A DNA stretch of 34,624 bases. Origin: a virus. Under the pieces are notes generated by a model. The model did no database searches. It was not told the DNA's origin and saw only the letters and a list, made by a program, of their open reading frames with translations. Each line of letters begins with the position of its first letter. The stretch's first letter is position 1. The DNA is taken from positions 1 through 34,624 of the IMG/VR virus record IMGVR_UViG_3300014839_000023. The stretch is one strand, 5' to 3'. Positions 2,547 through 34,096 of the stretch are shown in pieces. The position numbers and the translations under genes were made by a program.

Positions 2547-2960
2547 TTATGCGTTAGGGTTCTTAATCTTCTTGGGATACGGCGTCCCGTACTTTTGTAT
2601 GTTTGCCCATAACATTTCCGCCCATGGGTCTTTTACCTTGCCCTCATCCAGGTCTTTTAGATATTGAAAGTATCCAGGAGCCATCCCTATCCCACGGCCG
2701 AAAGTATTACCCAGCTCCATACATGTTTTATTTGTGTTCCAGTCTTTTCCCTGAGCGAAATCCTGATTTTCCTGATTTGTGTACGGTGTAGTCCTATTAG
2801 GGTTCTCTACTGAGTCTCTTTCCTGGATTGTAGACGGCGAAATCATACTAGAACATTTGCCCCGTTCCCATGCTACCAGATTGCTGTTCTGTGGCACTCC
2901 TGAGACAAGTGCTTTTTTAGCAAGTTGTGCCTTCATTGCTAACTTATTTTTCATTGACAT
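2547..2960 (-). CDS. hypothetical phage protein, 137 residues
   Basis: No family was recognised. The N-terminus is Lys/Ala-rich (MSMKNKLAMKAQLAKKAL), the middle is polar with many Asn, and the C-terminus contains DPWAEMLWANIQKYGTPYPK. An alternative start at Met3 is possible. It sits 3 bases after the gene to its right and 3 bases before the endolysin start, so it is part of the same operon. It may be a minor virion protein by position. Confidence 0.7.
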   Translation of the reverse strand: MSMKNKLAMKAQLAKKALVSGVPQNSNLVAWERGKCSSMISPSTIQERDSVENPNRTTPYTNQENQDFAQGKDWNTNKTCMELGNTFGRGIGMAPGYFQYLKDLDEGKVKDPWAEMLWANIQKYGTPYPKKIKNPNA

Positions 2961-2963
2961 AGT

Positions 2964-3905
2964 TTATTTCTTTTTAGAAAGTAATCTCTGTGCTTGTTTC
3001 CAAATCCCGATAAGTTCCTCCTCTGTCAGTGGCTGCTGTAATTTCTCATTGATTATCTGAGGCTCCTGTAATGATTGTATTCTGTTTTCCAAACTGGTGA
3101 TCTGATTAGACAGTTCAGGGGTAGGAGTCTTTTCAAACTGTGACCTCAGATCCTGCAACTGATTTTCTAGTGCAATATTGTTGTTACCGGTGACAGACTC
3201 TGGTGTAGGCACAAATGCCTTTTCTGGCGTTCCTATTGTCTGTGCTGCTTTCCAGTCTTGGTACATAGCCCTGGCACCTTTTAAACCATATTTGGCCACG
3301 TCTCCCAGCACCTTAGCATATAGCACATTAGCAGCCTGGGTTGCTACGTCCTTACCTCCATAAGCCATAAAGTCGCTCATATTCTGTGCTCCCGGTACGT
3401 TTAACGCCTGTGCTGCCTGACCAAATGCCCCTTGTTGGGTCGGGGTACCGTACAGTTTCCGTGCCTGATCTTCTAGATATACTGGTATCGCACCCAGAGC
3501 CTGGCCAACCGGTTTGGTTAGATCGGAACTCGTTAAACCACTTATAACAGCCCCTGCGGGGGCGTACATTGCCTCACTGGCCATTTTACCTATTCCACCG
3601 ATCCCTTGCCCTAAACGGCCTCCTATTGTCGGTGGCTGGTTCATGGTAGCAACGTCTTTTGCCCCTTGATACATTTTCTTGGCAGAATTGATTAAACTGT
3701 CCCCTGCCCCACCAATCATTTGGGTCGGAGCCGACAGGGTAGGCATAAACATTTTCTCTGCGCCCTGTCCTAAGTTATTCAAAAAGGTAGCACCAAAGTT
3801 CGGTGCCGGTGTGACCTGTGGCACATTATTGTAATGATCCAATAGTGTTTTAGCTTTTTGTCCAGCTTGGAGTCCCGCCTGCCATGCCTGCATAGTAAAG
3901 TCCAT
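2964..3905 (-). CDS. Ala/Gly/Gln-rich virion protein, possible ejection protein
   Basis: The 313 residues contain a Gly-rich stretch at about 100-130 (IGGRLGQGIGGIGKMASE), amphipathic Ala-rich segments, and a C-terminal coiled coil at about 235-285 (NQLQDLRSQFEKTP and following). There is no enzyme signature. With the next two genes to its right it forms a set of large, low-complexity, helical proteins between the fibres and the lysis genes. In short-tailed phages such sets are often internal proteins ejected with the DNA. That role is inference; sequence alone does not identify it. The spacing to the preceding stop is one base (TAATATG). Confidence 0.75.
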   Translation of the reverse strand: MDFTMQAWQAGLQAGQKAKTLLDHYNNVPQVTPAPNFGATFLNNLGQGAEKMFMPTLSAPTQMIGGAGDSLINSAKKMYQGAKDVATMNQPPTIGGRLGQGIGGIGKMASEAMYAPAGAVISGLTSSDLTKPVGQALGAIPVYLEDQARKLYGTPTQQGAFGQAAQALNVPGAQNMSDFMAYGGKDVATQAANVLYAKVLGDVAKYGLKGARAMYQDWKAAQTIGTPEKAFVPTPESVTGNNNIALENQLQDLRSQFEKTPTPELSNQITSLENRIQSLQEPQIINEKLQQPLTEEELIGIWKQAQRLLSKKK

Positions 3906-3906
3906 A

Positions 3907-5790
3907 TTATTGTTGGTTGACGTATTGATTATAAGCCTGTTCTATCTCGGGATCAGTGGCATTTGGGTGTGACTGCAGATAGCCGGACCTGAAATAGGAC
4001 TGTTGCAGGATTGTCGGTAAGACATTCCCTTGGGAAAGACCACCAGACGGTAAACCCATAAAACCCGTTCCTTGGCCCTCCATTATAAGACCACGGGCCG
4101 CAGATTCAGGATTGGCAATTGATCCTCTAGCCGCCCTTGTAGCAAGACTCCTGAGTGAGAATGACCGAGGAATGGGGAGTTTCTTTGTGGTGTCTGCTAT
4201 GTTTTCCACGGCTTTTGCTATGTCCGCTTGATTAATAAAGTCTTTTCCGCTTAATTCGCTGAGTTTATTTAGTGCCGGCACCAGTTTTTCTGGCGTGTTT
4301 TCATTATAAAGCGCCTGTAGGATCTGCGAACCAGGTTTGTCTGCATTAAGTCTCGGTCCTAAGAATTTATCTATGCCTGCGAGATCGGAGTAATTATCAA
4401 ACAAAGTCCTTGCTTCTTGTGGCAGATTATTCTTGAGAGTGTTGCTCATGTCTTCAACAGTTGACAGTAGAGGCACCTTTACAGCCCCTATTGGTTGGCC
4501 ATTTAACAGCCTCGAAAGTTTTAAAACATTATTGTCTATGTCGAATATTTTGTTATGCAGAGTGGTTGGATCAACCGAGGGGTTATCCTTAAGCCATTGT
4601 AGCAGACTTGTAATATGTTTCTGCCCCACTGTGTCAGATTGGAATCCCGATCCTGAAAAGTCTGGTGTGTCTTGTGACAAATCCACCTGAAATTGATCTG
4701 TCAGCATCGTCTCCAACTGAGTTCTTATAGGTGCTGTATCTATTTTCACTCCACTGTCGGTTGTCGCTTTTATAGCGTCCCCTAGGTCTTTTCCGGCCTG
4801 TGAAAGCTCTTGTTTAAATGCTGTTTTATAGGTTGTTTTAATTTGATCACCTACCTGGTCTGCTGCAGTTCTACTACCTGTGACACCTTTGTTGAGTTTG
4901 GCCTCCTCCAGAGTCTGGTTATAATCAGCAGCGTTTTCGGGTTTTTGTAGTGCTTTCTGCTGGTAGTCCTCAAGCCCTGCCGCCCCAGCTCTGGCATTCC
5001 GGATCTTGTCTAAAATATTCGGCATACCTGCCATGATACCTGTGGTTGTTCCTCCTAACGCACCCCACCCTGCTGCGTTTCCCGCTGCGGAACCGAGTGA
5101 AACAGAAGGATCTGGTATGTCTCTCTCCAGACTCTTGGCCGCCGATTGTGCACCACCTCTCACAAAACCAGTCCCGAAACTCTGTAACCATGTTGGTTTT
5201 GTCATACCGGGTGCAACTATATTAGCGACTCCACTCGCGGCGTCTACTCCGTGTGCGGCCTCATTAATTACTGTCCTAGGGAGATCCATTTGACCATTTT
5301 GACCAGCAACATTCCAGTTCACGTTGCCAATCCCCCAGGGGAGGGTTACGGGGGCTGTAGCATTTTGATTAATATTTTCCTGGCTAAACGGGACCTGCAC
5401 CTGTTTGTTCCAATCCCCCCCACTCTGTTGGACTGCTGTTGGAAGATCGGCAAGTGCCTTTCCAGCTCCCTGCACGTCTTTGTATGCAGTCACAGGAACC
5501 CCGGCAGCCGCGTTAAGTACCGGTTGTGCTGTAGAACTGTAGACCCCCTGATTAATCGTGTTTAAAGTGTTCCCGGACGTGTCTGCAAAACTTTTAGCCC
5601 ATAGGTTGTTATTAAAGAAACCACCCGCAGTGTCCAAGACGGGATTGCCTGTATTAGTCGGGAATTGTTGGGCGGGTTGAGGGGTTTGCTCCTGTTTCGC
5701 CGTTCTTACAAAAGCCTCAATGTCCTCTGGTGTTGCATTGGCAGCCGCAAGTTTTGCGGTATAGTCCCTGATTTGCTGGTCTGTATACAT
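3907..5790 (-). CDS. large Ala/Gln-rich virion protein, possible ejection protein
   Basis: This 627-residue protein starts with a helical segment (MYTDQQIRDYTAKLAAANAT). It has Asn/Gln-rich linkers, then a glycine-zipper-like stretch at about 232-256 (GSAAGNAAGWGALGGTTTG) that could insert into a membrane. A long helical region follows at about 265-560, ending in a basic patch (RSLATRAARGS). No catalytic motif was recognised. Its place beside two similar low-complexity proteins suggests an internal or pilot protein of the particle. The leader is TAACTAAAATCTT. Family unknown. Confidence 0.78.
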   Translation of the reverse strand: MYTDQQIRDYTAKLAAANATPEDIEAFVRTAKQEQTPQPAQQFPTNTGNPVLDTAGGFFNNNLWAKSFADTSGNTLNTINQGVYSSTAQPVLNAAAGVPVTAYKDVQGAGKALADLPTAVQQSGGDWNKQVQVPFSQENINQNATAPVTLPWGIGNVNWNVAGQNGQMDLPRTVINEAAHGVDAASGVANIVAPGMTKPTWLQSFGTGFVRGGAQSAAKSLERDIPDPSVSLGSAAGNAAGWGALGGTTTGIMAGMPNILDKIRNARAGAAGLEDYQQKALQKPENAADYNQTLEEAKLNKGVTGSRTAADQVGDQIKTTYKTAFKQELSQAGKDLGDAIKATTDSGVKIDTAPIRTQLETMLTDQFQVDLSQDTPDFSGSGFQSDTVGQKHITSLLQWLKDNPSVDPTTLHNKIFDIDNNVLKLSRLLNGQPIGAVKVPLLSTVEDMSNTLKNNLPQEARTLFDNYSDLAGIDKFLGPRLNADKPGSQILQALYNENTPEKLVPALNKLSELSGKDFINQADIAKAVENIADTTKKLPIPRSFSLRSLATRAARGSIANPESAARGLIMEGQGTGFMGLPSGGLSQGNVLPTILQQSYFRSGYLQSHPNATDPEIEQAYNQYVNQQ

Positions 5791-5800
5791 AAGATTTTAG

Positions 5801-7819
5801 TTATTTTACTCCGTATTTAGCTAAGATTGAGTCGGCTGCAGACCCCGTGCTCCCATTAATTTCAGCCAGCATAGATTTCACTTGATCCGGCCAGAGTCCC
5901 ATTGTCGGCAGACCCCCAAGCATAGGCAGTTTTGTCCCACCTAACGGGTTGTGTGCTCTCAGGTAGTCGTCCGCCTCGGCTGCAGAGACCGCTTTCCCTG
6001 TCTTAGCCTGTAAATAAGCCTGAATGAACATTTTAGATTCCTCCGGGCCTTTGGTTGCGTCAGCTGCAAGTTGGTTCAAATAACCAAGGTTAGTCTGGGT
6101 AGCCGTCTGGGTGTTGTACTGATCTGCCGCCTGTGCTTTGGCCGTTTGTTCTGCAAGCGTGTTCTGGAGGTTCGAGGTATTCTGTTGTTGATTAATATTG
6201 TTGATTGCCTGATTGTACACATTTGTCCACTCTCTAATTGCCTGTTGTTCACTTTCCCCCCCCGCCATTTTGTTATTTACATAGTCCTGAGCCTGATTCT
6301 GTAAAAGAGAGGCGTAATTCTGTGCAGTTCCTGGAGAGTTTTGTGTAATCGAAACCAGCGGCGTAATTGCAGCAATAGTAACAGCGTCGTCAGTAGGGGA
6401 AACTGTGTTCTGTGCTGGTGCACTAGGAGTGACCTGAACCGGTGGAGCGGCGTTAGCCGTCTGTGCTAGTGCCGCAAGTCCTGTCCTGTCAACACCCGAA
6501 ATTACACCCTCTCCCGCCTTAGCCAAGAGAGATTTCTGTTTTCCTCCCTCATGGGAATAGGTCTCAATCACTGCCGCCACCTGTCGGGCAAGTGGTAGAT
6601 TCTGAAAAACAATCGGCCCGGCAATGTCCATCAAAGCATTTTTTCCTGTACTTTTTTTATACCAGGAGAAAGCAGAAGTACCCAAGAGTGCAATTGCCCC
6701 CCTGATACCGTCTGCCGGTGTTGCAAAAGTAATTGTGGCCCTGTTTCCAAAATTGTGTCCCTGTTCTACTGAATAATTGACACCCGCTTTGTCTAGTGCG
6801 CCCAGCCACTCTTTATTATAAGGATCGTTGGGTAGAGGATTTGTTGAGGCATCTACCGCTACGGAGGTTGCAATAGGATTGTTAGTTCTGTCTGTTCGCA
6901 TAGCCGTCGAACTGCCCAATGAGGGGTTGGTTACCGTAGATTGGAAAGTCCCCGGATCAATTCCTGCTGCCTGCAAAATCTGTAAAGAGGCGTCAGATAT
7001 TTTTCCCGTCCAAGGGTCTATATCCAGACTTTTTAAGACGTCCGCCCTCAACTGCTGTTGTTTATACTGATTATCGAGCTGGTCTTGTTGTTTTTGGTAA
7101 TCGTCCTGAGAAATTTGGCGGGCTGCAGCATCTTTCTGTAGTTTTAACAGTTCCTCATTCCGTTTGTTGGCAATCGCATCCTGATTTGTTTGATAGTTGG
7201 CACTATAGACGTCCTTTGCGCCTTGGTACTGGTCCATTATGCTTCCTCTATTAAACTCCGCCTGCTGTAGTCCCAGTGACCAGTTAGCACGCTGATTCTC
7301 AATGTCCTGCTGTCTCTGATTTGCCTGCTCCTGTAAAATATCCCTGGTGTTTCCGAGTGCCGTGTCAAACCTAGTCCCCAGATCAGACTGCAGGTTAAGG
7401 AGTCCCTGTGCACGGTCTACTAAACCCTGTTGCTGGTTCCCCTGACTGTTGATTGCCTGTCCCAGACTGATTCCCGGATATAAGGTTTGACTTGTATTTG
7501 GCCCCATTACGGCACCCTGTAAAGACTGTGCAATCATGGGTTGTAGACCAGCGTTGTTGGCGGCAATCTTTTTCTGCAGTGCGTCTTTTACCATTTGCAT
7601 TACCATACTCGGTGCCGGTGCTGAATTAGTTTGTGCAGTCGGAATAGCAGGGGCTGCCGGTAGTTGAGGAATTTGCGGAGGTGTTGGGAAAGTTGGGTTG
7701 GCAACAGCTTTTTTAAGAGCCAAATCTTTAGCACCAGCAATTGAGGCTGCTGTAGTCGGAGTATTGGATAAGTTTAATATCTTCCTTTGGGTTGCTGTAA
7801 GTGAACTTGAGATCGCCAT
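5801..7819 (-). CDS. large Gln-rich virion protein with a possible lysozyme-like segment
   Basis: The 672 residues are Gln/Asn/Ala-rich. Residues about 140-275 form a long coiled coil. A more globular part at about 330-450 contains NYSVEQGHNFGNRATITF followed by ATPADGIRGAIALL, which faintly resembles the 'NPGN...F...DGirA' module of phage peptidoglycan-degrading proteins; that match is weak. The C-terminal part is again helical, ending in a Gly/Leu-rich segment (GGTKLPMLGGLPTMGLW). A virion-associated protein that helps DNA entry is the working idea. No catalytic residues can be named. Confidence 0.75.
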   Translation of the reverse strand: MAISSSLTATQRKILNLSNTPTTAASIAGAKDLALKKAVANPTFPTPPQIPQLPAAPAIPTAQTNSAPAPSMVMQMVKDALQKKIAANNAGLQPMIAQSLQGAVMGPNTSQTLYPGISLGQAINSQGNQQQGLVDRAQGLLNLQSDLGTRFDTALGNTRDILQEQANQRQQDIENQRANWSLGLQQAEFNRGSIMDQYQGAKDVYSANYQTNQDAIANKRNEELLKLQKDAAARQISQDDYQKQQDQLDNQYKQQQLRADVLKSLDIDPWTGKISDASLQILQAAGIDPGTFQSTVTNPSLGSSTAMRTDRTNNPIATSVAVDASTNPLPNDPYNKEWLGALDKAGVNYSVEQGHNFGNRATITFATPADGIRGAIALLGTSAFSWYKKSTGKNALMDIAGPIVFQNLPLARQVAAVIETYSHEGGKQKSLLAKAGEGVISGVDRTGLAALAQTANAAPPVQVTPSAPAQNTVSPTDDAVTIAAITPLVSITQNSPGTAQNYASLLQNQAQDYVNNKMAGGESEQQAIREWTNVYNQAINNINQQQNTSNLQNTLAEQTAKAQAADQYNTQTATQTNLGYLNQLAADATKGPEESKMFIQAYLQAKTGKAVSAAEADDYLRAHNPLGGTKLPMLGGLPTMGLWPDQVKSMLAEINGSTGSAADSILAKYGVK

Positions 7820-11258: not shown

Positions 11259-11612
11259 ATGATATATATACCGCCTAAAAGTGGCTATATAAACAAAAAG
11301 GGTTACCATATTAGCCATCAAAACGGTCGAGATCGGTGTACACATAGGATTGTTATGGAACGCTTTCTTGGGAGGGCTTTGTCCAGAGAGGAGTGTGTCC
11401 ACCATAAAAATGGAGACAAACTCGATAATTCTCCTGAAAATCTTGAGATCCTTAGCCGTAAAAATCACCCAACCAAACATCGACACAATCTTGCCAACCC
11501 AAAGTATTGTCGTCTGTGTGATGAATTTTTGCCAACGGAACGGTTTTCTAAAGATAAATATGGAAGACTTCGCTCCTATTGTAAGCATTGTCGTTCTGTG
11601 AATCAATTTTAG
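11259..11612 (+). CDS. free-standing HNH homing endonuclease, opposite strand
   Basis: The 117-residue protein has the HNH_3 pattern: THRIVMERFLGRALS, then the catalytic HHKNGDKLDNSPENLEIL with His48-His49 and Asn57/Asn61. A C-terminal zinc knuckle follows with Cys84-x2-Cys87 and Cys108-x2-Cys111. It is the only clear plus-strand protein gene in the window and sits between two minus-strand fibre genes without disrupting either. Such genes are mobile: they nick or cut the allele that lacks them and copy themselves in. No convincing promoter was seen; the start context is TTATGCTTAAAAC. Confidence 0.88.
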   Translation: MIYIPPKSGYINKKGYHISHQNGRDRCTHRIVMERFLGRALSREECVHHKNGDKLDNSPENLEILSRKNHPTKHRHNLANPKYCRLCDEFLPTERFSKDKYGRLRSYCKHCRSVNQF

Positions 11613-16616: not shown

Positions 16617-16808
16617 TCACGCTCCGATCCCAAGAAGAGTACGTTTCGGACTGACGGTAACTCCTGCTGATGAAGACCCAATCCACCCACTCGGACTTCC
16701 TTCAGAATCCATAAGCATAGTCCCAGAGTCATTGATTGTGAAGACCGCCCCCGCACAAGTGCCTTCAAAATCAAATAACATACCCGAACTGTCAGATGGC
16801 GCAGCCAT
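16617..16808 (-). CDS. hypothetical small beta-rich protein
   Basis: The 63 residues are rich in Ser, Gly and Thr (MAAPSDSSGMLFDFEGTCAG ... GWIGSSSAGVTVSPK). No family was recognised; the composition resembles short pieces of fibre proteins. The leader TAACGTTAGAAAACA matches the genome-wide pattern, and the start overlaps the end of the HNH gene to its right by 17 bases. That overlap suggests the HNH gene inserted just ahead of it. An alternative frame (16577-16834) lacks such a leader. Confidence 0.6.
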   Translation of the reverse strand: MAAPSDSSGMLFDFEGTCAGAVFTINDSGTMLMDSEGSPSGWIGSSSAGVTVSPKRTLLGIGA

Positions 16809-17388
16809 TGTTTTCTAACGTTATGTGTTTCCAACTTTTACCGTTTTTAATGTCACTGATTGTGGGATTTGAAACCCCTACCGTCTTTGCTATTAACCAC
16901 TGCCTGACTCCAATTGAACAAGCCCGCTTAATAAACAAAACCTTACCTGGTGTTAGTTTTGTGAAATGACTTTTTTCACCTCTGTTTTTAAACCCTTGAT
17001 GAGTCCCGTGTCTGATTGCATCAAGTGAGTTGCTCTGTGCTGTCCCCCAATAAAGGTTCCCCAGAGAATTGTTAAACCTGTTCCCGTCCCTGTGGCAGAC
17101 CATGGATCGCCCTGCGGGATTGTCCAAGAAAGCCGCTGCTAATAATCTGTGGACACCCCTTGAGACCCTTTTTCCGCTAATCCCCAGGCGCACAGACAAA
17201 TATCCTTTCCCCTTTTTACTCACACGCTGAGGGATAATTTCCCAGTCTTGCGACTCACATACCATTACTTTTATGATTTTTCCTCCTTTGTCTCTTGTGA
17301 TCTGCTGCTGACGACAGGAATAAACCACTCCATGAGTGTCAATCTCATATCCATCAAACCCCTTAATTTTCTTTCTTTGATATTCCAT
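16792..17388 (-). CDS. HNH homing endonuclease with NUMOD4 and C-terminal HTH
   Basis: From ATG 17388 the protein has 198 residues. NUMOD4 is at about 5-25 (KKIKGFDGYEIDTHGVVYS) and an HNH_3 domain at about 78-115 (VHRLLAAAFLDNPAGRSMVC, HRDGNRFNNSLGNLYWGT) with His80, His99 and Asn106/107. A helix-turn-helix follows at about 145-180 (VRQWLIAKTVGVSNPTISDI). An upstream Met at 17424 would overlap the tailspike gene; the 17388 start leaves TAATATTTTT before it. It is a free-standing mobile gene on the same strand as its neighbours. Confidence 0.9.
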   Translation of the reverse strand: MEYQRKKIKGFDGYEIDTHGVVYSCRQQQITRDKGGKIIKVMVCESQDWEIIPQRVSKKGKGYLSVRLGISGKRVSRGVHRLLAAAFLDNPAGRSMVCHRDGNRFNNSLGNLYWGTAQSNSLDAIRHGTHQGFKNRGEKSHFTKLTPGKVLFIKRACSIGVRQWLIAKTVGVSNPTISDIKNGKSWKHITLENNGCAI

Positions 17389-17395
17389 AAAAATA

Positions 17396-19855
17396 TTATA
17401 CAACTGATGCGGAAAAATCGTCACAGTAGATGGATGACCCAGAGTCGCAATCCACTACAAACTTCAGAGTAATATTCCCCGTTACCGCACCCAAAGACCC
17501 GCTAATCTGGTTCCAACTTCCTACCGCCGAGGCATAAGTCGCTACCACTTGGTCTGAAGCATACGCTGCACCTGCTGACGGATTAGCTTTACATACTAGT
17601 CTTGGCTGGCTTCCAGCATAGGCAGCGTTCTTTTTGATATACACGCTCACGGTTGGAGCCTCGGTATTTTTGCAGTTCACATAAAATGGTTCGGACTCCA
17701 GTCGGTTAGAGGCGTTATTTGGTTGCATCTCCATTGATGGTGTAGCGGTGTTGAACTCAGTGGTATTCCGTAAAATCGTTCCGTATTTATACCAAGCCCT
17801 ATAGTTACTGGCAGCGCCATCATGCTTAGAGGACTTGATACTGTGATTAGTATGAAGATTTGCCTGACCTGAAACCTCTGTTGATGCCAGAACCGTATTA
17901 TACATTTGTATATTAGCAGAAGAGCCTGAAGCAACAGCTATATCTGCAGTCGCATGTGCCTGATTAACACCCAAATTACAATCTATAAATTTTAACTTTT
18001 CCCAAACACTTCCTGAGACAGAAACGCCTATTGGTTGGGTTAGAGTTGTGCCAGCATCAAAAGTACAAGCGTTGAAGGTGATAGTTCCTGCTGACATAAC
18101 ATTAAAATTCCCTGCCCAGACACCCGCAGACAAATTTCCAAAAGCTGTAAGACCAGAAATAAGTAAATCTCTCTCTACTACAGCATTTGAAGGAGGGGGG
18201 TAGACTCCATAGCCATTGCGCCATGACCTACAATTCAAAACAGTCCCACTTGAAGGGAAAGAGCCTGATGTGTTTGAACCAAAACCAAAGCCTCCTCCTG
18301 CTGAATGGACGACATTGCCAGAAAAAGTACCAATAGCGGCTGCCTCTTTCAGCCCGATTAAAGCCCCATCTCCATTTGAAGATCCACTAGAACAATAATT
18401 ACCCGTTACGGTGATGCCGACATCTTGCAGGAAAATATTATCAATACCTGAACCCGCAGACGTAACTTTTGCACACAGATTATTGCTAATTACATTGGTA
18501 GTAAGCGTAGTAGCAGTTTGCCTTATCTGATATAAATCCGTGTTATAGATGACATTTTGATTTATTGTACACCGTCCCGTATTACCTGCTAAATAAACGC
18601 CAACGGAATTTGCCACGGGAGTCCCAGAATTATAGATGGCACAATTTTCTACAAGTGCCGTACCAGTTGTGGTATCAAAATATAGGCCTTGATATGTGCT
18701 ATGATATATATCAATCATCTCTACCCATGTAAGACTAGCCGTAGCCGTAGTTGCCGCATAGAAGTAAAAAGTGTTAGCTGCTGTAACCGCCCTAACCTTT
18801 ACATTTCTCGTGAGATTACCGACTTCACCCTGCACCATTGTAGTTGCGTTGCCACCATGAGCATTAGTAATAGCCGCAATAGTGAGTGTTGTCCCAGAGC
18901 CGGCTGCCGACAGTGCTTTTGTTTCCACATCTGCTGCCGTTAAAGTTGTAGAGGTCAACACACAAACATCACCGTTTGCCCAAGCTGACCCCACTGAGTC
19001 TGCAATAGTAAGAGAGGTGGCACTAGGAGCCGCATCAGCAGCTAGAAGCGACCATGATTTTACTTTATTTGCTCCAGTGATCGTAATGGTTGAACCGATA
19101 TGGCCTTTCAACCCATATTGCCCAGCAGAAGCATTATCAAACTCAAGAATAGCGGTTCTAGCCGCATTTGTTTGTACCTGTGTATAAGTTCCTCCCGCCC
19201 AGACTAAACAATTTCCCGCCAATCTAAACTGTGTATTTGCTCCCGTAGCATGTGCTAGTTCCGCTTGTGTTATATCACATGGGCCAAAAGAAGTAGTATC
19301 TGCGTTGTTCATTGTTACGGTAACTGCTGTACCAACTCCTGCTCCCGTGAGTCTTTTTGAAATGAGCAGTCTATCAGTTGCAGCCGCAGCTGAGGCTGTA
19401 GTCGTCCGTAGGATTAAATTCCAGTCATTGGAGGCACCCGCATAAAAATAACACTGTGTAGTAGTCGAGGCCGTGAGCCTGATTTTATAGCTTTTTAAAA
19501 CATTTAAAGTAACAGGGGCATCAAACTCAAAGAACGGCCATGAGCCAGGGGAAACTGCTGTGTTTCCCATTGCGGGCAAATCCGCTTGGTTAACGGTTAC
19601 AGTTTTGACGGCAGTGGAATCAGTGAAATTATATAGTATCACTGTGAGTGTTCCCGTGGTTCCCGCCTGTCGCGACATGTTTAAATAAACCCCGTCCACC
19701 TCATCTGTCATCGTAGTATAGGGAGCAGAATCAAGATTAGAAGTCGTAACGGCGGTAGAGGTGGCTCCGTCCACTTTAACCATAGTGGCGCTACCCCGAT
19801 GCCACGTTCCCGCTGTTGTGAAGTTTCCTGTTGCTGTTGCTCCTTTGTATGCCAT
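17396..19855 (-). CDS. tailspike with G8-like region and parallel beta-helix
   Basis: This is the longest protein in the window (819 residues). An N-terminal beta-sandwich-like part (about 1-160) is followed by a G8-like segment at about 215-340 (LTIADSVGSAWANGDVC, TLTIAAITNAHGG). A right-handed beta-helix runs at about 350-670 (many N-x-I/V steps such as NSVGVYLAGNTGRCTINQN), then a C-terminal domain of about 120 residues that looks like a carbohydrate-binding jelly roll (ending FVVDCDSGSSIYCDDFSA). This is a typical layout for a phage spike that binds or cuts surface polysaccharide. No catalytic residues can be assigned. The HNH gene follows 7 bases after its stop. Confidence 0.78.
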   Translation of the reverse strand: MAYKGATATGNFTTAGTWHRGSATMVKVDGATSTAVTTSNLDSAPYTTMTDEVDGVYLNMSRQAGTTGTLTVILYNFTDSTAVKTVTVNQADLPAMGNTAVSPGSWPFFEFDAPVTLNVLKSYKIRLTASTTTQCYFYAGASNDWNLILRTTTASAAAATDRLLISKRLTGAGVGTAVTVTMNNADTTSFGPCDITQAELAHATGANTQFRLAGNCLVWAGGTYTQVQTNAARTAILEFDNASAGQYGLKGHIGSTITITGANKVKSWSLLAADAAPSATSLTIADSVGSAWANGDVCVLTSTTLTAADVETKALSAAGSGTTLTIAAITNAHGGNATTMVQGEVGNLTRNVKVRAVTAANTFYFYAATTATASLTWVEMIDIYHSTYQGLYFDTTTGTALVENCAIYNSGTPVANSVGVYLAGNTGRCTINQNVIYNTDLYQIRQTATTLTTNVISNNLCAKVTSAGSGIDNIFLQDVGITVTGNYCSSGSSNGDGALIGLKEAAAIGTFSGNVVHSAGGGFGFGSNTSGSFPSSGTVLNCRSWRNGYGVYPPPSNAVVERDLLISGLTAFGNLSAGVWAGNFNVMSAGTITFNACTFDAGTTLTQPIGVSVSGSVWEKLKFIDCNLGVNQAHATADIAVASGSSANIQMYNTVLASTEVSGQANLHTNHSIKSSKHDGAASNYRAWYKYGTILRNTTEFNTATPSMEMQPNNASNRLESEPFYVNCKNTEAPTVSVYIKKNAAYAGSQPRLVCKANPSAGAAYASDQVVATYASAVGSWNQISGSLGAVTGNITLKFVVDCDSGSSIYCDDFSASVV

Positions 19856-21837: not shown

Positions 21838-24066
21838 CTAAACGAAATTGATCCAAACACTCGTCCCTGTACAATAGGCGGGTTTGTTTGTCGCACCATT
21901 GAAACATACGTCTCCAGCCGTGGCTGTTAAGGCGCCGTTAGGATCGGTTGCGTCACTCATCCAGAGAGTTACGCCATTCATGGTAGCAATCTTATAGAAG
22001 TGAGTGGTATTGGCAGCTGCTGTTACCTTGATTGCAGCTAAAGCGCCGTCCTGCTTAATTTCCAGAGCTGTAGCACCGGAAGCCGAGGCATGGTCCTGTA
22101 GCACGTAAACTGTGGATCTGGTACCCGTATCAGCAGAATTGCTTGCAAACTTGGCCAGATAGCCGGTTGTGAGGGCGTTGCCGTCACTGACGTCCAAGAG
22201 CGTACCTGTAGTGACCGCAACACCTGAGACCTGGAAAGCTACACCTGCAGCCAGAGCGGCAGAGGCGGTGACTTTACAGACCACGGTTTCGTCGTTTGCT
22301 GCAGAAGCAAATTCATTCAATATTGCTGACGTTCCTGTGGCTCCCGAATGAGAGGATAGGAACATTCTACCATTGCCTGTGATAGCAGTGGCAGAGGAAG
22401 CAATCTTGACGATTTGTCCTGACGTTAGAGCGTTAGCAGTGGCAAGAATTACACCTGCAGCCGTTGTTCCAGCAGAGGTGATATTCAGTGCCTTACCAGC
22501 TACTGCGTTGTGGGTCAGGCTTATACCGTCACCTGTACCGTCCACGTCCATAACTATTTCAATACCGTTTGTGGTATCAGTAATAGTCCCGGAGGTATTG
22601 GTGGTTACGTTTTCTACATACAGGACCGAGCCTGCTTTAGAGAACGAGCCCCCGCCGTTGATTACTGAGGTCTTGATCAGAGAGAGCAGATCAAAGTCGT
22701 CTGCTACCGTGCCAGTGGTTACTGTCCTTGAGGAAGCAATATTTACAGTGGCACCAATCTTATTCACCGTACCGGTAATTGCTGTCCCGGTAGACGTAAA
22801 GGTAGCCAAAGAGCCAGAGGTGACTGCGCTGTTTGCTCCTGTATTCTCTACATATAACAGACTACCTGTAGTCTTTGTAGCACCGGAGGTTATATGGATA
22901 CCTTTGCCCTGTGTAAGCACCGCAAGAGGCATATATACTGCCGTACCAGTTGTGAGTCCCGAAGGAGTCACGGTCATGAATGACGAGGTTGTGTTGCCTG
23001 TATAGGTTCCAGATCCTGCTAATACCACCACAGAGGCGGAGGTAGCAGTGTTGTTGGTAACCGTGAACGAAGCAGCATTATCAGCGTCTGTGAGGGCAAG
23101 GGAGCCGTCACTAGAGACTATATCACCCTGGGTAAGTACCAGAGAGTTTGCACCTCCACCAGATATACCAAGGATTGTTACGACACCGTCCTCACCTACC
23201 GAGAAATTGGAGGCACCGGCTGTAGCGTCCCAGCACCGGAGATAAAACCCTCCATTTAACGTGGCTTCTGTAACCTGAAGGTTTAAGAGTGCACCTGTAG
23301 TAAGCGAGGTAGAAACTAAATTCACCACACCTGTCGAGGTTGATACACCTATAGTGGTTGCCGTGTTGTTCGTCACCGTTAGTGTTGACGCATTTGCAGC
23401 AGAGGTCAGTGTTGAAGCACCTGCAGATACCGCGAACGTTCCTGAGGTGACCGTAGCGTTACCAGAGGTAAGTACCAGATTTCCTGAGGTCAAAGTGGCA
23501 TTACCGGACGTGATCAGGAAGTTACCAGCAGCTACTGTTAAAGCACCTGCGGTTGTGGTTGTGGTCCCTGAAGCCCCTATTGTGAGCGCACCACCAGAGG
23601 CGTTGATTGTACCACCAGAGGTGAGTTCAAGAATACCTACCGATCCGGTAGATATAATTGACCATGCGGGACCTGTAATGTCGTTTCCAGAGCCTGAGTT
23701 TGAGAGAACCAGCACCGCACCAGCTCCTACGTTTGTCTTGGTTAAGGAAAGCAATGCAGCAGCGGCAGACTGTGTAATTGTCCAGGTTGCCGTCGTGAGT
23801 GCAAAAGTCGAATCCACTCCATAAATGTCCTCCCACGTGGGAGTGTTGCCGCTACCACCACCGGTCAGACGCACCGTTGTAGTACCATTCCAGTAGCTCA
23901 AGCGGGAGCTTGAATCCACAAAGAGGCCGTATGTTGATGCGGCATCCAGTGGGTCGGTTGTGGCCTGAATATCAAAAAACAGGAACGATCCGGCTCCATA
24001 TTTGGATTTACCAGAAAGATAAACACTGTTTTCTGAGTTGGCCCTAAAACCGTTTTTAATTGCCAT
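21838..24066 (-). CDS. long repetitive fibre protein (trimeric beta-repeat type)
   Basis: The 742 residues begin with a conserved head (MAIKNGFRANSENSVYLSG, then a YGLFVDSSSRLSYWNG block). A long body of short Gly/Thr/Ser/Ala repeats follows. Residues about 165-215 read as repeated LTSGN-type units, and VTNNTAT occurs at about 230 and 335. The C-terminus (MSDATDPNGALTATAG, CFNGATNKPAYCTGTSVW) is a module common at the end of such phage fibres. This fits a stacked beta-fibre, probably a head or tail fibre. It follows the MCP gene directly, which could mean a head-attached fibre. No enzymatic motif. Confidence 0.75.
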   Translation of the reverse strand: MAIKNGFRANSENSVYLSGKSKYGAGSFLFFDIQATTDPLDAASTYGLFVDSSSRLSYWNGTTTVRLTGGGSGNTPTWEDIYGVDSTFALTTATWTITQSAAAALLSLTKTNVGAGAVLVLSNSGSGNDITGPAWSIISTGSVGILELTSGGTINASGGALTIGASGTTTTTAGALTVAAGNFLITSGNATLTSGNLVLTSGNATVTSGTFAVSAGASTLTSAANASTLTVTNNTATTIGVSTSTGVVNLVSTSLTTGALLNLQVTEATLNGGFYLRCWDATAGASNFSVGEDGVVTILGISGGGANSLVLTQGDIVSSDGSLALTDADNAASFTVTNNTATSASVVVLAGSGTYTGNTTSSFMTVTPSGLTTGTAVYMPLAVLTQGKGIHITSGATKTTGSLLYVENTGANSAVTSGSLATFTSTGTAITGTVNKIGATVNIASSRTVTTGTVADDFDLLSLIKTSVINGGGSFSKAGSVLYVENVTTNTSGTITDTTNGIEIVMDVDGTGDGISLTHNAVAGKALNITSAGTTAAGVILATANALTSGQIVKIASSATAITGNGRMFLSSHSGATGTSAILNEFASAANDETVVCKVTASAALAAGVAFQVSGVAVTTGTLLDVSDGNALTTGYLAKFASNSADTGTRSTVYVLQDHASASGATALEIKQDGALAAIKVTAAANTTHFYKIATMNGVTLWMSDATDPNGALTATAGDVCFNGATNKPAYCTGTSVWINFV

Positions 24067-24146: not shown

Positions 24147-24653
24147 TTAACTGTTTGCCCCCGTAGAACCGAAGAAATTTCTCATGTCTGAAGCACCACG
24201 GCTGTAAAACATAGTAGCCTTCCGTTTGTACAGATCACTGTCATATTCAATTTCCGGGTCATCCAGACTGGGTCTCTTTGACCAGAGCCATTGCAGACCA
24301 TAACGGTCAGATTTTAGACCCGAATCAAATGCAAACCAATAGGCATCATTATCCAGATGTTTTAGGGTGATAAGTGTTGGCAGACCTACTAAAGCAGAGC
24401 CATCATTCTCATTACCACCAGGAATCATCTTTTTGGTGATCGCAGCCTGGATTTCTTCATATCTGCTGTGAACGGATGAACCGTATTTGCAGATCAAGGT
24501 ATCTGGCATAACTCCCATTTGCTGTCCACGACCAGTCAGGACTAAACCTGCTGTGCGGCGTAAAGCTTTTAGGGCGTCATACTCAAAGTCCATCGAATAA
24601 GTCTGGCCATCGTAAACCTTGTTGTTCCACGCCGTTCCCAGATTGTTGCTCGC
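24147..24653 (-). CDS. major capsid protein, exon 2 (C-terminal part)
   Basis: Exon 2 encodes residues 166-333, starting ASNNLGTAWNNKVYDGQTYS and ending in TAA at 24147. The block GQQMGVMPDTLICKY and the later YWFAFDSGLKSDRYGL are of the kind seen in HK97-fold capsid proteins of the Mu-gpT-like or related type. The first Met of this stretch (24593) is internal; the frame is open back to the 3' splice site at 24653/24654. After splicing, exon 1 and exon 2 join in phase 0 at HTREDG/ASNNLG, giving a 333-residue protein. Confidence 0.85.
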   Translation of the reverse strand, partial: ASNNLGTAWNNKVYDGQTYSMDFEYDALKALRRTAGLVLTGRGQQMGVMPDTLICKYGSSVHSRYEEIQAAITKKMIPGGNENDGSALVGLPTLITLKHLDNDAYWFAFDSGLKSDRYGLQWLWSKRPSLDDPEIEYDSDLYKRKATMFYSRGASDMRNFFGSTGANS

Positions 24654-24744
24654 CTTATGAAAGGCGGGGTAGATTATTTCTATCTACCTCTGCATGTTTC
24701 CATGCAGGTCGGACTATCACATCACCCTCTTGCGGGGTGTCTTC

Positions 24745-25314
24745 TCAGTTAGTCTCTGCTACTGTAAAATGTTTTTGCCAGTAAGGCCGATTGTGATTTG
24801 TTTTAGAGTGGCACCTGAAGCATAATGTTATCAGGTTTCTCGGATCAGAATGTTTCTTGTTGTAGTCTATGTGGTGAATTGATGTACCGGGTAACCCACA
24901 TAATTGGCAGGTGAAGTTATCCCGCTTCCTTATTAGTTCTCTGTATTCTCTGGTAAAGACCTTATCATAAGGTTCATTCGCTATACCACCTTTCCAAAGC
25001 CGAGCCTTTTCACCCTTCTGAGCATTCTCGCATTTTGCCCTGTATACCGGATCTCGCCAGAGTTTCTTAACCGATGCGCTGATTTTCTGGATGACCTCTG
25101 GCTTTTCCCTATAAAGCCTGTTGACCGATGCCCTTAATTTTTCCCTTGAGGCTTTTGCCATCGGCCTCCCCTTATTCCATGCTACCTGCACCCCCTGGAT
25201 GCCCTTATTCCATGGAACACATCCAGTCCTGGGTGGAGGTCTTCGGCCTGCGCGCTTTGCTACCAGACTCAACTTCCTCCGATGCTCAATTGTGAATACC
25301 GCGCCTTTCTTCAT
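24745..25314 (-). CDS. intron-encoded HNH homing endonuclease (NUMOD3)
   Basis: The 189 residues start with NUMOD3-like units (FTIEHRRKLS..., two VPWNKG/VAWNKG boxes at about 33-48, SREKLRASVNRLY at about 56-68). The HNH domain is at about 130-180: CQLCG (Cys136, Cys139), HHIDYNKKHSDPRNLITL with His147-His148 and Asn160, then CFRCH (Cys165, Cys168). It should cut intronless capsid alleles near the insertion point and so spread the intron. Its last codons (VAETN and TGA) overlap the conserved R element of the intron, so the same bases serve the protein and the ribozyme core. It has its own promoter upstream. Confidence 0.93.
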   Translation of the reverse strand: MKKGAVFTIEHRRKLSLVAKRAGRRPPPRTGCVPWNKGIQGVQVAWNKGRPMAKASREKLRASVNRLYREKPEVIQKISASVKKLWRDPVYRAKCENAQKGEKARLWKGGIANEPYDKVFTREYRELIRKRDNFTCQLCGLPGTSIHHIDYNKKHSDPRNLITLCFRCHSKTNHNRPYWQKHFTVAETN

Positions 25315-25343
25315 TTTACTTGTAGAGGGTTATCTTGGTTGCT

Positions 25344-25372
25344 ATTATAACATATATTCTTATAAAAAGCAA
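25344..25372 (-). promoter_or_regulatory. sigma70-type promoter inside the intron
   Basis: On the minus strand TTGCTT (25372-25367) and a perfect TATAAT (25349-25344) are separated by exactly 17 bases. Transcription would start about 25336, some 22 bases before the endonuclease ATG. This would allow expression of the nuclease apart from the capsid transcript. It is the best promoter match seen in the window. Confidence 0.75.
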
Positions 25373-25495
25373 ACCGTAAGATTTTCCCCATTAATTAGAG
25401 AAGATTTATCGTGGAACAAATTGTCAAAGATCAATTTTCGTGACTATCGCCCTTTACGCATTGCAAGGTATAAGGCGTGACGGCAGAACATATTT

Positions 25496-25990
25496 ACCGT
25501 CTTCACGAGTGTGCGCAGCTGAGAAATATGCGACAGTATCAGCACCAGCAGTATTAACTGTCTGGCCGTCACCATCGGTATATGATGCAGAGAAACCGTT
25601 ATTCAGCATATCTGCACCATCATCTTCACATTTCTCGCGCATGGAATCATTGAGAGTTTCTACCAGGTTGGTAATTTTGCGAAACTCAATACCGAATTTC
25701 CATAGATGATCAGAAATTTTGATTCCATCACCATACTTAATTTGCGTGTACGTTTTATCAAAACCCTGTAAAGGCGCATCATAAAGCACGCTTGCATTGT
25801 CGCCAATAAATTTAGCCTTGGCTGGGCCGAGTACAGAGGAGTCCTTACTATAATAACTGGTAGTATCTTGTACGTTGTAATATTTTTCAATATTAGGCTG
25901 GAGTTCGTTTCGTTTGACGAAGATCTTTTGTATAGATTCATCAACCAAATCTGCAAAATCTCCAACTGTTGCGGGAACTGTAACTGTCAT
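25496..25990 (-). CDS. major capsid protein, exon 1 (N-terminal part)
   Basis: Exon 1 encodes residues 1-165, from ATG 25990 to the splice site after GAC GGT. It starts MTVTVPATVGDFADLVDES, with helical N-terminal part and the block YTQIKYGDGIKISDHLWKFG. ADMLNNGFSASYTDGDG and YFSAAHTREDG follow; this DG loop followed by NNLG in exon 2 is typical of these capsid proteins. Unspliced reading would run 13 more codons into the intron and stop at 25454, giving a truncated product. The gene follows the decoration-like protein, scaffold-like protein and portal in normal head-gene order. The leader is TTAACCCAACCTAAAAA. Confidence 0.88.
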
Positions 25991-33516: not shown

Positions 33517-33942
33517 CTAGTTTGACGTGTTTTGTAAATAAAAATGTAGTTTCTCCAGTAGCCAGTCCCGTTCTTCAGATCTTGTTCTGTGCGGGGCCTC
33601 CCTAGCTTGCAGGGATAAACCGTCTTTCCAAAAGGGTCCATATTTTACCTCCATTGCAGTTTCATAATTCATGCGGGTTTCCTCAATTCCCTGGTGGGCG
33701 GAGTGGTGACAGTGACCACATAAAGGCGTTAAATTTTTTTCCTCTAGCCGCAACTCTAGGTACCGCTTAAAACTGAAACAGTGGTGCATAACCTCAGCCC
33801 TGCCGGTGCAGCTTTTGGATCTTCCCTCACACTCCAGCCCCATTGCCCGATAGTAATCCTGTAATGCCCGTGAAACTTTGTTCCAGAGAGGGGTATTAGA
33901 TCTTGCCTTTTTTGGTTTGCATATCGGTTTTAACGAACTCAT
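33517..33942 (-). CDS. HNH endonuclease near the terminase genes
   Basis: From ATG 33942 the protein has 141 residues. The zinc/HNH part spans Cys38-x6-Cys45, EVMHHCFSFKRYLELRLEEK with His53-His54, then NLTPLCGHCHHSAHQG with Asn70, Cys75, Cys78 and His79-80. HNH proteins beside terminase genes can take part in DNA packaging cleavage in phages such as HK97; homing is the alternative. No NUMOD parts are present, unlike the other large HNH proteins here, which slightly favours a packaging role. A start at 33990 would lengthen the overlap with the previous gene; the chosen start overlaps it by 47 bases. Confidence 0.8.
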   Translation of the reverse strand: MSSLKPICKPKKARSNTPLWNKVSRALQDYYRAMGLECEGRSKSCTGRAEVMHHCFSFKRYLELRLEEKNLTPLCGHCHHSAHQGIEETRMNYETAMEVKYGPFWKDGLSLQAREAPHRTRSEERDWLLEKLHFYLQNTSN

Positions 33943-34096
33943 AATATTGCTTATTGTGATTGAGTATGTGGGTAATTTCGTCAATCTCACGAAAAAGCTC
34001 CTGGCGTTTTTTTACTGCACAGGTCTTATTGCAGAACTGGACCAGATGATCATGGCCGAGCAGACTTTTACCGCACATAATACATTCCTTTGCCAT
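33896..34096 (-). CDS. small zinc-finger protein
   Basis: The 66 residues contain Cys5-x2-Cys8 and Cys22-x3-Cys26 (CIMCGKSLLGHDHLVQFCNK), a four-Cys zinc-binding pattern, followed by a basic helix (KKRQELFREIDEITHILNHN). The spacing is like small TRASH/MYM-type fingers. The 3' end overlaps the start of the HNH gene by 47 bases. Likely nucleic-acid or protein binding; function unknown. Confidence 0.65.
   Translation of the reverse strand: MAKECIMCGKSLLGHDHLVQFCNKTCAVKKRQELFREIDEITHILNHNKQYYEFVKTDMQTKKGKI

Follow-up and report, generated by a model that had tools for sequence, protein, structure and literature searches.

The window, as we call the whole stretch of viral DNA analysed here, comprises 34,624 nucleotides (IMG/VR record IMGVR_UViG_3300014839_000023, positions 1 to 34,624). 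On its minus strand, running from 25990 to 24147, lies a capsid gene that a predicted group I intron splits after codon 165 (Table 1); a terminase and a portal-like gene precede it. The window protein matches the sequence family PF25209 (Phage_capsid_4) with 36.1 bits against a cut-off of 27, and a structure model of an intronless relative (mean pLDDT 68.6) has phage capsids and encapsulins as its top PDB matches (best E 2.9e-6). Sequence family and modeled fold both point to an HK97-type major capsid protein as the probable product. The large terminase gene on the same strand is frameshifted within its Walker A motif, in the region 32179-32175, where GGSAGGG is followed by 5 extra bases and then by KSYFLRW; in the relatives L288-L291 (L numbers designate loci throughout) the motif is uninterrupted and reads GGxxGGGKSY. 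This 5-nt insertion may be an assembly error, a decayed gene or something odder.

Table 1. Predicted features of the interrupted capsid gene, in window coordinates.
Feature	Position	Strand	Basis
Capsid exon 1, 165 codons, 3' end ...CGTGAAGACGGT	25496..25990	-	ORF and translation; alignment to intronless relatives
Group I intron, 857 nt, AAATATG...CAATCTG	24639..25495	-	homology-ranked join and P1/P10; Rfam RF00028, 27.4 bits; z -5.6
Internal guide: TGTTCT (25490-25485, pairs with exon 2 GGAACG as P10), then GCCGTC (25484-25479, pairs with exon 1 GACGGT as P1)	25479..25490	-	6+6 bp, unique among in-frame sites; family-wide permutation test
P2 hairpin CGCCTT...AAGGGCG	25448..25477	-	minimum-energy fold
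Core, 5' half	25312..25404	-	unconstrained minimum-energy fold
P3 5' strand TCTTCTC	25404-25398	-	unconstrained minimum-energy fold
P4 GGGG / CCCT	25389-25386 / 25329-25326	-	unconstrained minimum-energy fold
P5 ATCTT / AAGAT	25382-25378 / 25336-25332	-	unconstrained minimum-energy fold
P6 5' strand CTAC	25325-25322	-	unconstrained minimum-energy fold
P6a 5' strand GTAAAATG	25319-25312	-	unconstrained minimum-energy fold
HNH homing-endonuclease ORF, 189 aa, in P6a loop	24745..25314	-	PF01844, 27.5 bits; phrog_1271, E 1.6e-13
Core, 3' half	24690..24771	-	Rfam match
P6a/P6 3' strands	24771-24759	-	Rfam match
P7 GACTA / TAGTC	24754-24750 / 24716-24712	-	100% paired, 3 covarying pairs over 21 cores
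P3 3' strand GAGAAGA	24746-24740	-	Rfam match
P8 CACCC/GGGTG	24739-24723	-	Rfam match
P9 with GAAA loop	24707-24690	-	Rfam match
P9.1 GTAGAT/ATCTAC and P9.2 CGCCTT/AAGGCG hairpins	24651..24687	-	folds
Capsid exon 2, 163 codons and stop, 5' end GGAACGGCG	24147..24638	-	homology; corrected from 24653

A first-pass annotation of this DNA had proposed that a group I intron interrupts the major capsid gene, a reading on which the ribozyme structure, the covariation among relatives, the P1/P10 pairings, the intronless homologues and the HK97-type fold agree. Its splice sites, described as readable, were correct at the 5' end and misplaced at the 3' end. The 5' splice site is 25496|25495, where the end of exon 1 (25501-25496) and the guide form, just as had been proposed, a P1 of 6 bp with a U.G pair at the cut. 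The 3' splice site is 24639|24638, 15 nt downstream of the 24654|24653 initially chosen, and the intron measures 857 nt instead of 842 nt. It ends there as ...AATCTG|GGAACG, with the omega G present and a P10 of 6 bp, whose TGTTCT strand directly adjoins the P1 guide. Among all in-frame joins that end the intron in G, 25496/24638 tops the homology ranking and is the only one to offer 6 bp of P10. In about 30 uninterrupted close relatives the sequence is HTREDG-G(T/S) or nearly so, and nothing is inserted there. The nearest of them, L001 (the same contig as L083, L135 and L214), is about 69-70% identical in protein and reads HTREDG-GTAW, where the initial join gives HTREDGASNNLGTAW; the DNA of the nearest intronless relative (~67% identical) aligns without a gap at the corrected junction and with a 15-nt gap against the initial one. 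The corrected join would yield a capsid protein of 328 aa with the junction HTREDG|GTAW, the intronless L001 protein having 329. Since no intronless homologue comes closer than about 70% protein identity, it is by homology, and not in a near-identical allele, that the empty site of the window can be recognised.

The initial join at 25496/24653, with its 333-residue product, is in frame and also ends the intron in G, yet we consider it very improbable. Its P10 would have 1 bp instead of 6, its homology score is below that of 24638, and the product carries five residues too many, with an ASNNL at the junction that occurs in no relative; comparison with intronless homologues confirmed the interruption itself but not the HTREDG/ASNNLG junction, the relatives having the short form. 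Moreover, the cut would sit inside the P9.2 stem (24666-24651), within its arm at 24656-24651. Another in-frame alternative, 24651|24650, was rejected: its P10 reaches 4 bp at best, and only when offset, and its product retains residues absent from relatives.

The R and S elements (CAGAGACTA and ATAGTCC), P8 and the GAAA-capped P9 were all found where the first-pass annotation had placed them. When GAAA stands in for the ORF loop, folding of the intron gives z = -5.56 (none of 100 shuffles was as good), and the unconstrained minimum-energy fold includes P2, P3, P4, P5, P6, P6a, P9, P9.1 and P9.2; P7 is absent from it because it crosses P3. The window intron has a group I core with the P3-P8 and P4-P6 domains and the P7 guanosine site, P3 and P4-P6 being taken from the predicted fold and P7 from covariation. 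P4 is short, with 4 bp including one G.U. No P7.1/P7.2 insertion was seen between P7 and P3 of the window intron; this insertion is a feature of subgroup IA, and its absence argues against that subgroup. In a covariance-model search with Rfam RF00028, 24842-24690 on the minus strand scored 27.4 bits, with an E value of 2e-4 for a search space of 2 kb and of 0.0033 for the window as a whole; at E values up to 1, nothing else in the window matched. The score falls short of the Rfam gathering score of 50, which is a curator's cut-off and not a molecular feature, and is lowered because the ORF sits inside the core; the relatives L115 (88.5 bits), L172 (66.8) and L188 (51.3) exceed that cut-off. 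Our family covariance model, R1, gives the window intron, one of its training members, 85 bits.

The ORF inside the intron had escaped the first-pass annotation. Its HNH domain (PF01844) was detected with E 3.5e-6 and 27.5 bits against a cut-off of 21.4, and its motif is intact (C-x2-C ... HH ... N ... C-x2-C). The reading frame begins within the P6a helix (GTAAAATG/CATTTTAC) and reads through P6 and P7 into P3. A consensus scan for a promoter of its own inside the intron returned sites no more frequent than in shuffles. From its position only, we infer that the HNH protein may cleave the intronless allele near the insertion site. Three further HNH-like genes occur in the window, at 11259-11612 (+), 16792-17424 (-) and 33517-33990 (-); neither Rfam nor the family model found a group I core beside them, and they are therefore probably free-standing.

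Relatives of the capsid protein were collected from IMG/VR by an alignment search, which gave 52, and by two more scans with N- and C-terminal alignments, which added others. Dereplication at 95% protein identity left 91 clusters, 68 with a complete uninterrupted gene, 18 with an interrupted one and 5 partial. Introns are thus present in 18 of the 86 dereplicated complete relatives among the matches listed, a rough fraction since the seed alignments held three interrupted genes and one scan comprised at least 80 loci; the window and L017 are not counted in it. Capsid introns had been called known but not common in phages, which holds for phages at large according to the literature consulted and fails in this capsid family. 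Searches for the capsid in genome contigs and in plasmids found nothing, nor did the portal protein used as bait in viral contigs, and annotated phages supplied one distant relative, MW202785 (25.7% identity). In that genome (L003, MW202785.1, 1-1190) the annotation gives the large terminase as two CDSs lying 133 nt apart, which may be a further case of gene interruption. L017 was reached through its HNH protein; its translation identifies the same capsid gene, in which two group I cores were found. A search of 20 HNH-relative loci at the Rfam gathering score had found no introns, and the family model later found the two in L017, so Rfam misses part of this lineage.

Including the window's, we mapped 24 introns, which occupy 13 sites; a gene carries up to three of them, and they encode an HNH endonuclease, a LAGLIDADG endonuclease or none. 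In the numbering by window-protein residue and phase, the sites are 81.1 (L261), 82.0 (L119, L175), 97.1 (L113, L114, L159, L172, L188, L195, and L180 by DNA alignment with L185), 98.1 (L197), 165.0 (window, L254), 166.0 (L152), 173.2 (L159), 176.0 (L250, L273), 182.0 (L119, L196, L250), 268.2 (L114), 300.0 (L144), 304.1 (L119) and 306.0 (L249). Boundaries in relatives were set by the same procedure as in the window, homology and not pairing choosing nearly all of them; a U before the intron (in most relatives) and a G at its end were required when sites were assigned, and three introns (the third of L119 and the two of L250) were located by direct comparison of the sequence with homologues. 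The intron inserted at 97.1 in L180 (2565-3227), placed from DNA, is an exception in ending in A and not G. L119 (IMGVR_UViG_3300021357_000178, 3652-6455) carries three introns with two HNH-like ORFs and one LAGLIDADG ORF, and L250 (IMGVR_UViG_3300033388_006548, 2597-3500) carries two, the first of 178 nt, separated by an exon of 18 nt (TTYNMD). Exact empty sites were found for L195 (3780|4492, against L183 3194|3195) and twice for L114 (382|1283 and 1805|2484, against L150), and all three coincide with the boundaries predicted beforehand. The intron sites lie in conserved stretches (mean local identity 0.745 vs 0.621 for the whole gene, p = 5e-5, neighbouring sites not being independent), the window's at the 99th percentile of local conservation.

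Across the 24 introns, P1 averages 6.1 bp with the intron's own exon 1 and 3.3 with other exons (0 of 1000 permutations), and P10 averages 4.2 bp with its own exon 2 and 1.7 with others (0 of 5000). P7 is paired in all 21 aligned cores, with three covarying pairs, and P8 and P9 covary too; over these helices 86.5% of cells are paired vs 70.1% after shuffling, and double changes number 70 vs 22. The covariance model built from the cores also finds cores outside its training set, in L273 (66.8 bits), L254 (30.8), L017 (57 and 56) and the third intron of L119 (66); in the uninterrupted capsid loci it gives only weak opposite-strand matches, in L148/L149 (20.9 bits), and one strong match (56 bits), in the gene downstream of the capsid gene in L255, L258 and L287. 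This group I core, at ~4895-4984, has LAGLIDADG and HNH ORFs nearby, and the downstream gene is by appearance a homologue of window 21838-24066.

Both capsid halves in the window are open reading frames, as would be expected had an HNH cassette broken the gene into two separately acting pieces, or left it dead, without splicing. This too we hold to be very improbable: the gap is filled exactly by a complete group I core whose P1 and P10 match, exon conservation extends up to the junction from both sides, and the same arrangement recurs in relatives at 12 further sites, for some of which an exact empty site was found. Endonuclease domains are also found in inteins, which is what speaks for splicing at the protein level; the frame of exon 1, however, meets a stop ending at 25454, 13 residues beyond the junction, so that no fused precursor is possible, and a Pfam search found no intein splicing domain, which leaves this explanation with hardly any probability. 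Equally improbable is an assembly chimera of unrelated sequences. The terminase gene on this contig, with its 5-nt frameshift-like insertion, does show that the assembly, or the virus, is imperfect, but the guide matches both flanking exons, related introns occupy other sites, and L254, on an independent contig, has a different intron with the same guide at the same site.

Taken together, the sequence comparisons lead us to give a probability of about 0.95 to the reading that the capsid gene is split after codon 165 by a group I intron whose P6a loop holds an HNH gene, and that this intron splices to give the 328-aa protein, homes, and is one of many related introns. In such a scheme, the capsid pre-mRNA would fold, P1 would hold GACGGU, and guanosine would attack the phosphate that follows the final U, whereupon GGAACG, held in P10, would be joined on to give the HTREDG|GTAW protein. 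The HNH protein would cut intronless alleles near the highly conserved codon stretch, and repair would copy the intron in. On this view many related introns, the window's among them, would be gained and lost rapidly at about 13 positions in this capsid gene family. On the capsid tree, intron presence requires 18 changes for 19 intron-bearing rows (shuffled mean 17.4), and this lack of clustering does not support a single ancestral gain. The intron of L254 has the site and the guide of the window's but an unrelated endonuclease (LAGLIDADG_2 vs HNH), some introns have no ORF (L152, L172, L188, L261 and the first of L250), and the L188 ribozyme is 86% identical to the ORF-bearing one in L159. The unrelated endonucleases at a shared site and the ORF-less introns would fit gain and loss of endonucleases with frequent homing. 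The window guide GCCGTC fits its own site at codon 165 and also the GACGGT at codon 176, which is used in L250 and L273. We propose, tentatively and as a less probable extension, that the capsid gene of an uncultured podovirus-like clade is a hot spot where one group I ribozyme lineage occupies about 13 sites, swapping and losing HNH and LAGLIDADG genes and spreading partly by reverse splicing into guide-matching sites.

The corrected splice map concerns a capsid gene that automatic annotation would call two broken ORFs, and surveys of phage diversity based on capsid genes would miss or truncate about one fifth of this family. The family also offers, within one essential gene, a natural series of alleles with and without introns, exact empty sites being available for some; it allows intron gain and loss, the exchange of endonucleases and the colonisation of new sites to be measured. 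A search of mainly open-access literature found no paper on this capsid family.

Among known systems, the major capsid gene of mycobacteriophage LittleE (Cluster J) has an intron of ~820 bp, termed only most likely group I, whose splicing was proven by RT-PCR and protein sequencing (PMC3706429). Like the window's, it is a capsid intron of similar size with an endonuclease ORF, its exon ending in U and the intron in G; unlike in the window, capsid family and host are different and the ORF lies on the opposite strand of its intron (PMC3706429). Core, P1/P10 and covariation are explicit in the window, whereas splicing is demonstrated in LittleE (PMC3706429). A group I intron in the capsid subunit gene of lactococcal phage Tuc2009 is cited in the same work (PMC3706429), a likeness drawn here from the citation and not from sequence. 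In crAss-like phages of the Delta and Zeta groups, the major capsid gene is interrupted by several group I introns, one gene being split into five ORF fragments, a likeness to the window; these are different, larger gut phages, and the sections consulted contain no site-by-site survey across a capsid family (PMC7886860). The window's relatives lie on contigs of up to ~50 kb and have a P22-like portal. Jug phages carry ~18 introns per genome, spread over many genes, with essential ones such as terL and nrdD among those interrupted by group I introns and splicing backed by metatranscriptomes (PMC12363816). Their richness in such introns is what they have in common with the window's family, but in the window a single core was found, and the loci examined have nearly all their introns in the capsid gene. 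As capsid introns have already been published in LittleE and crAss-like phages, the window intron belongs to a known kind; what this analysis contributes is the corrected junction and the intron site map of one capsid family.
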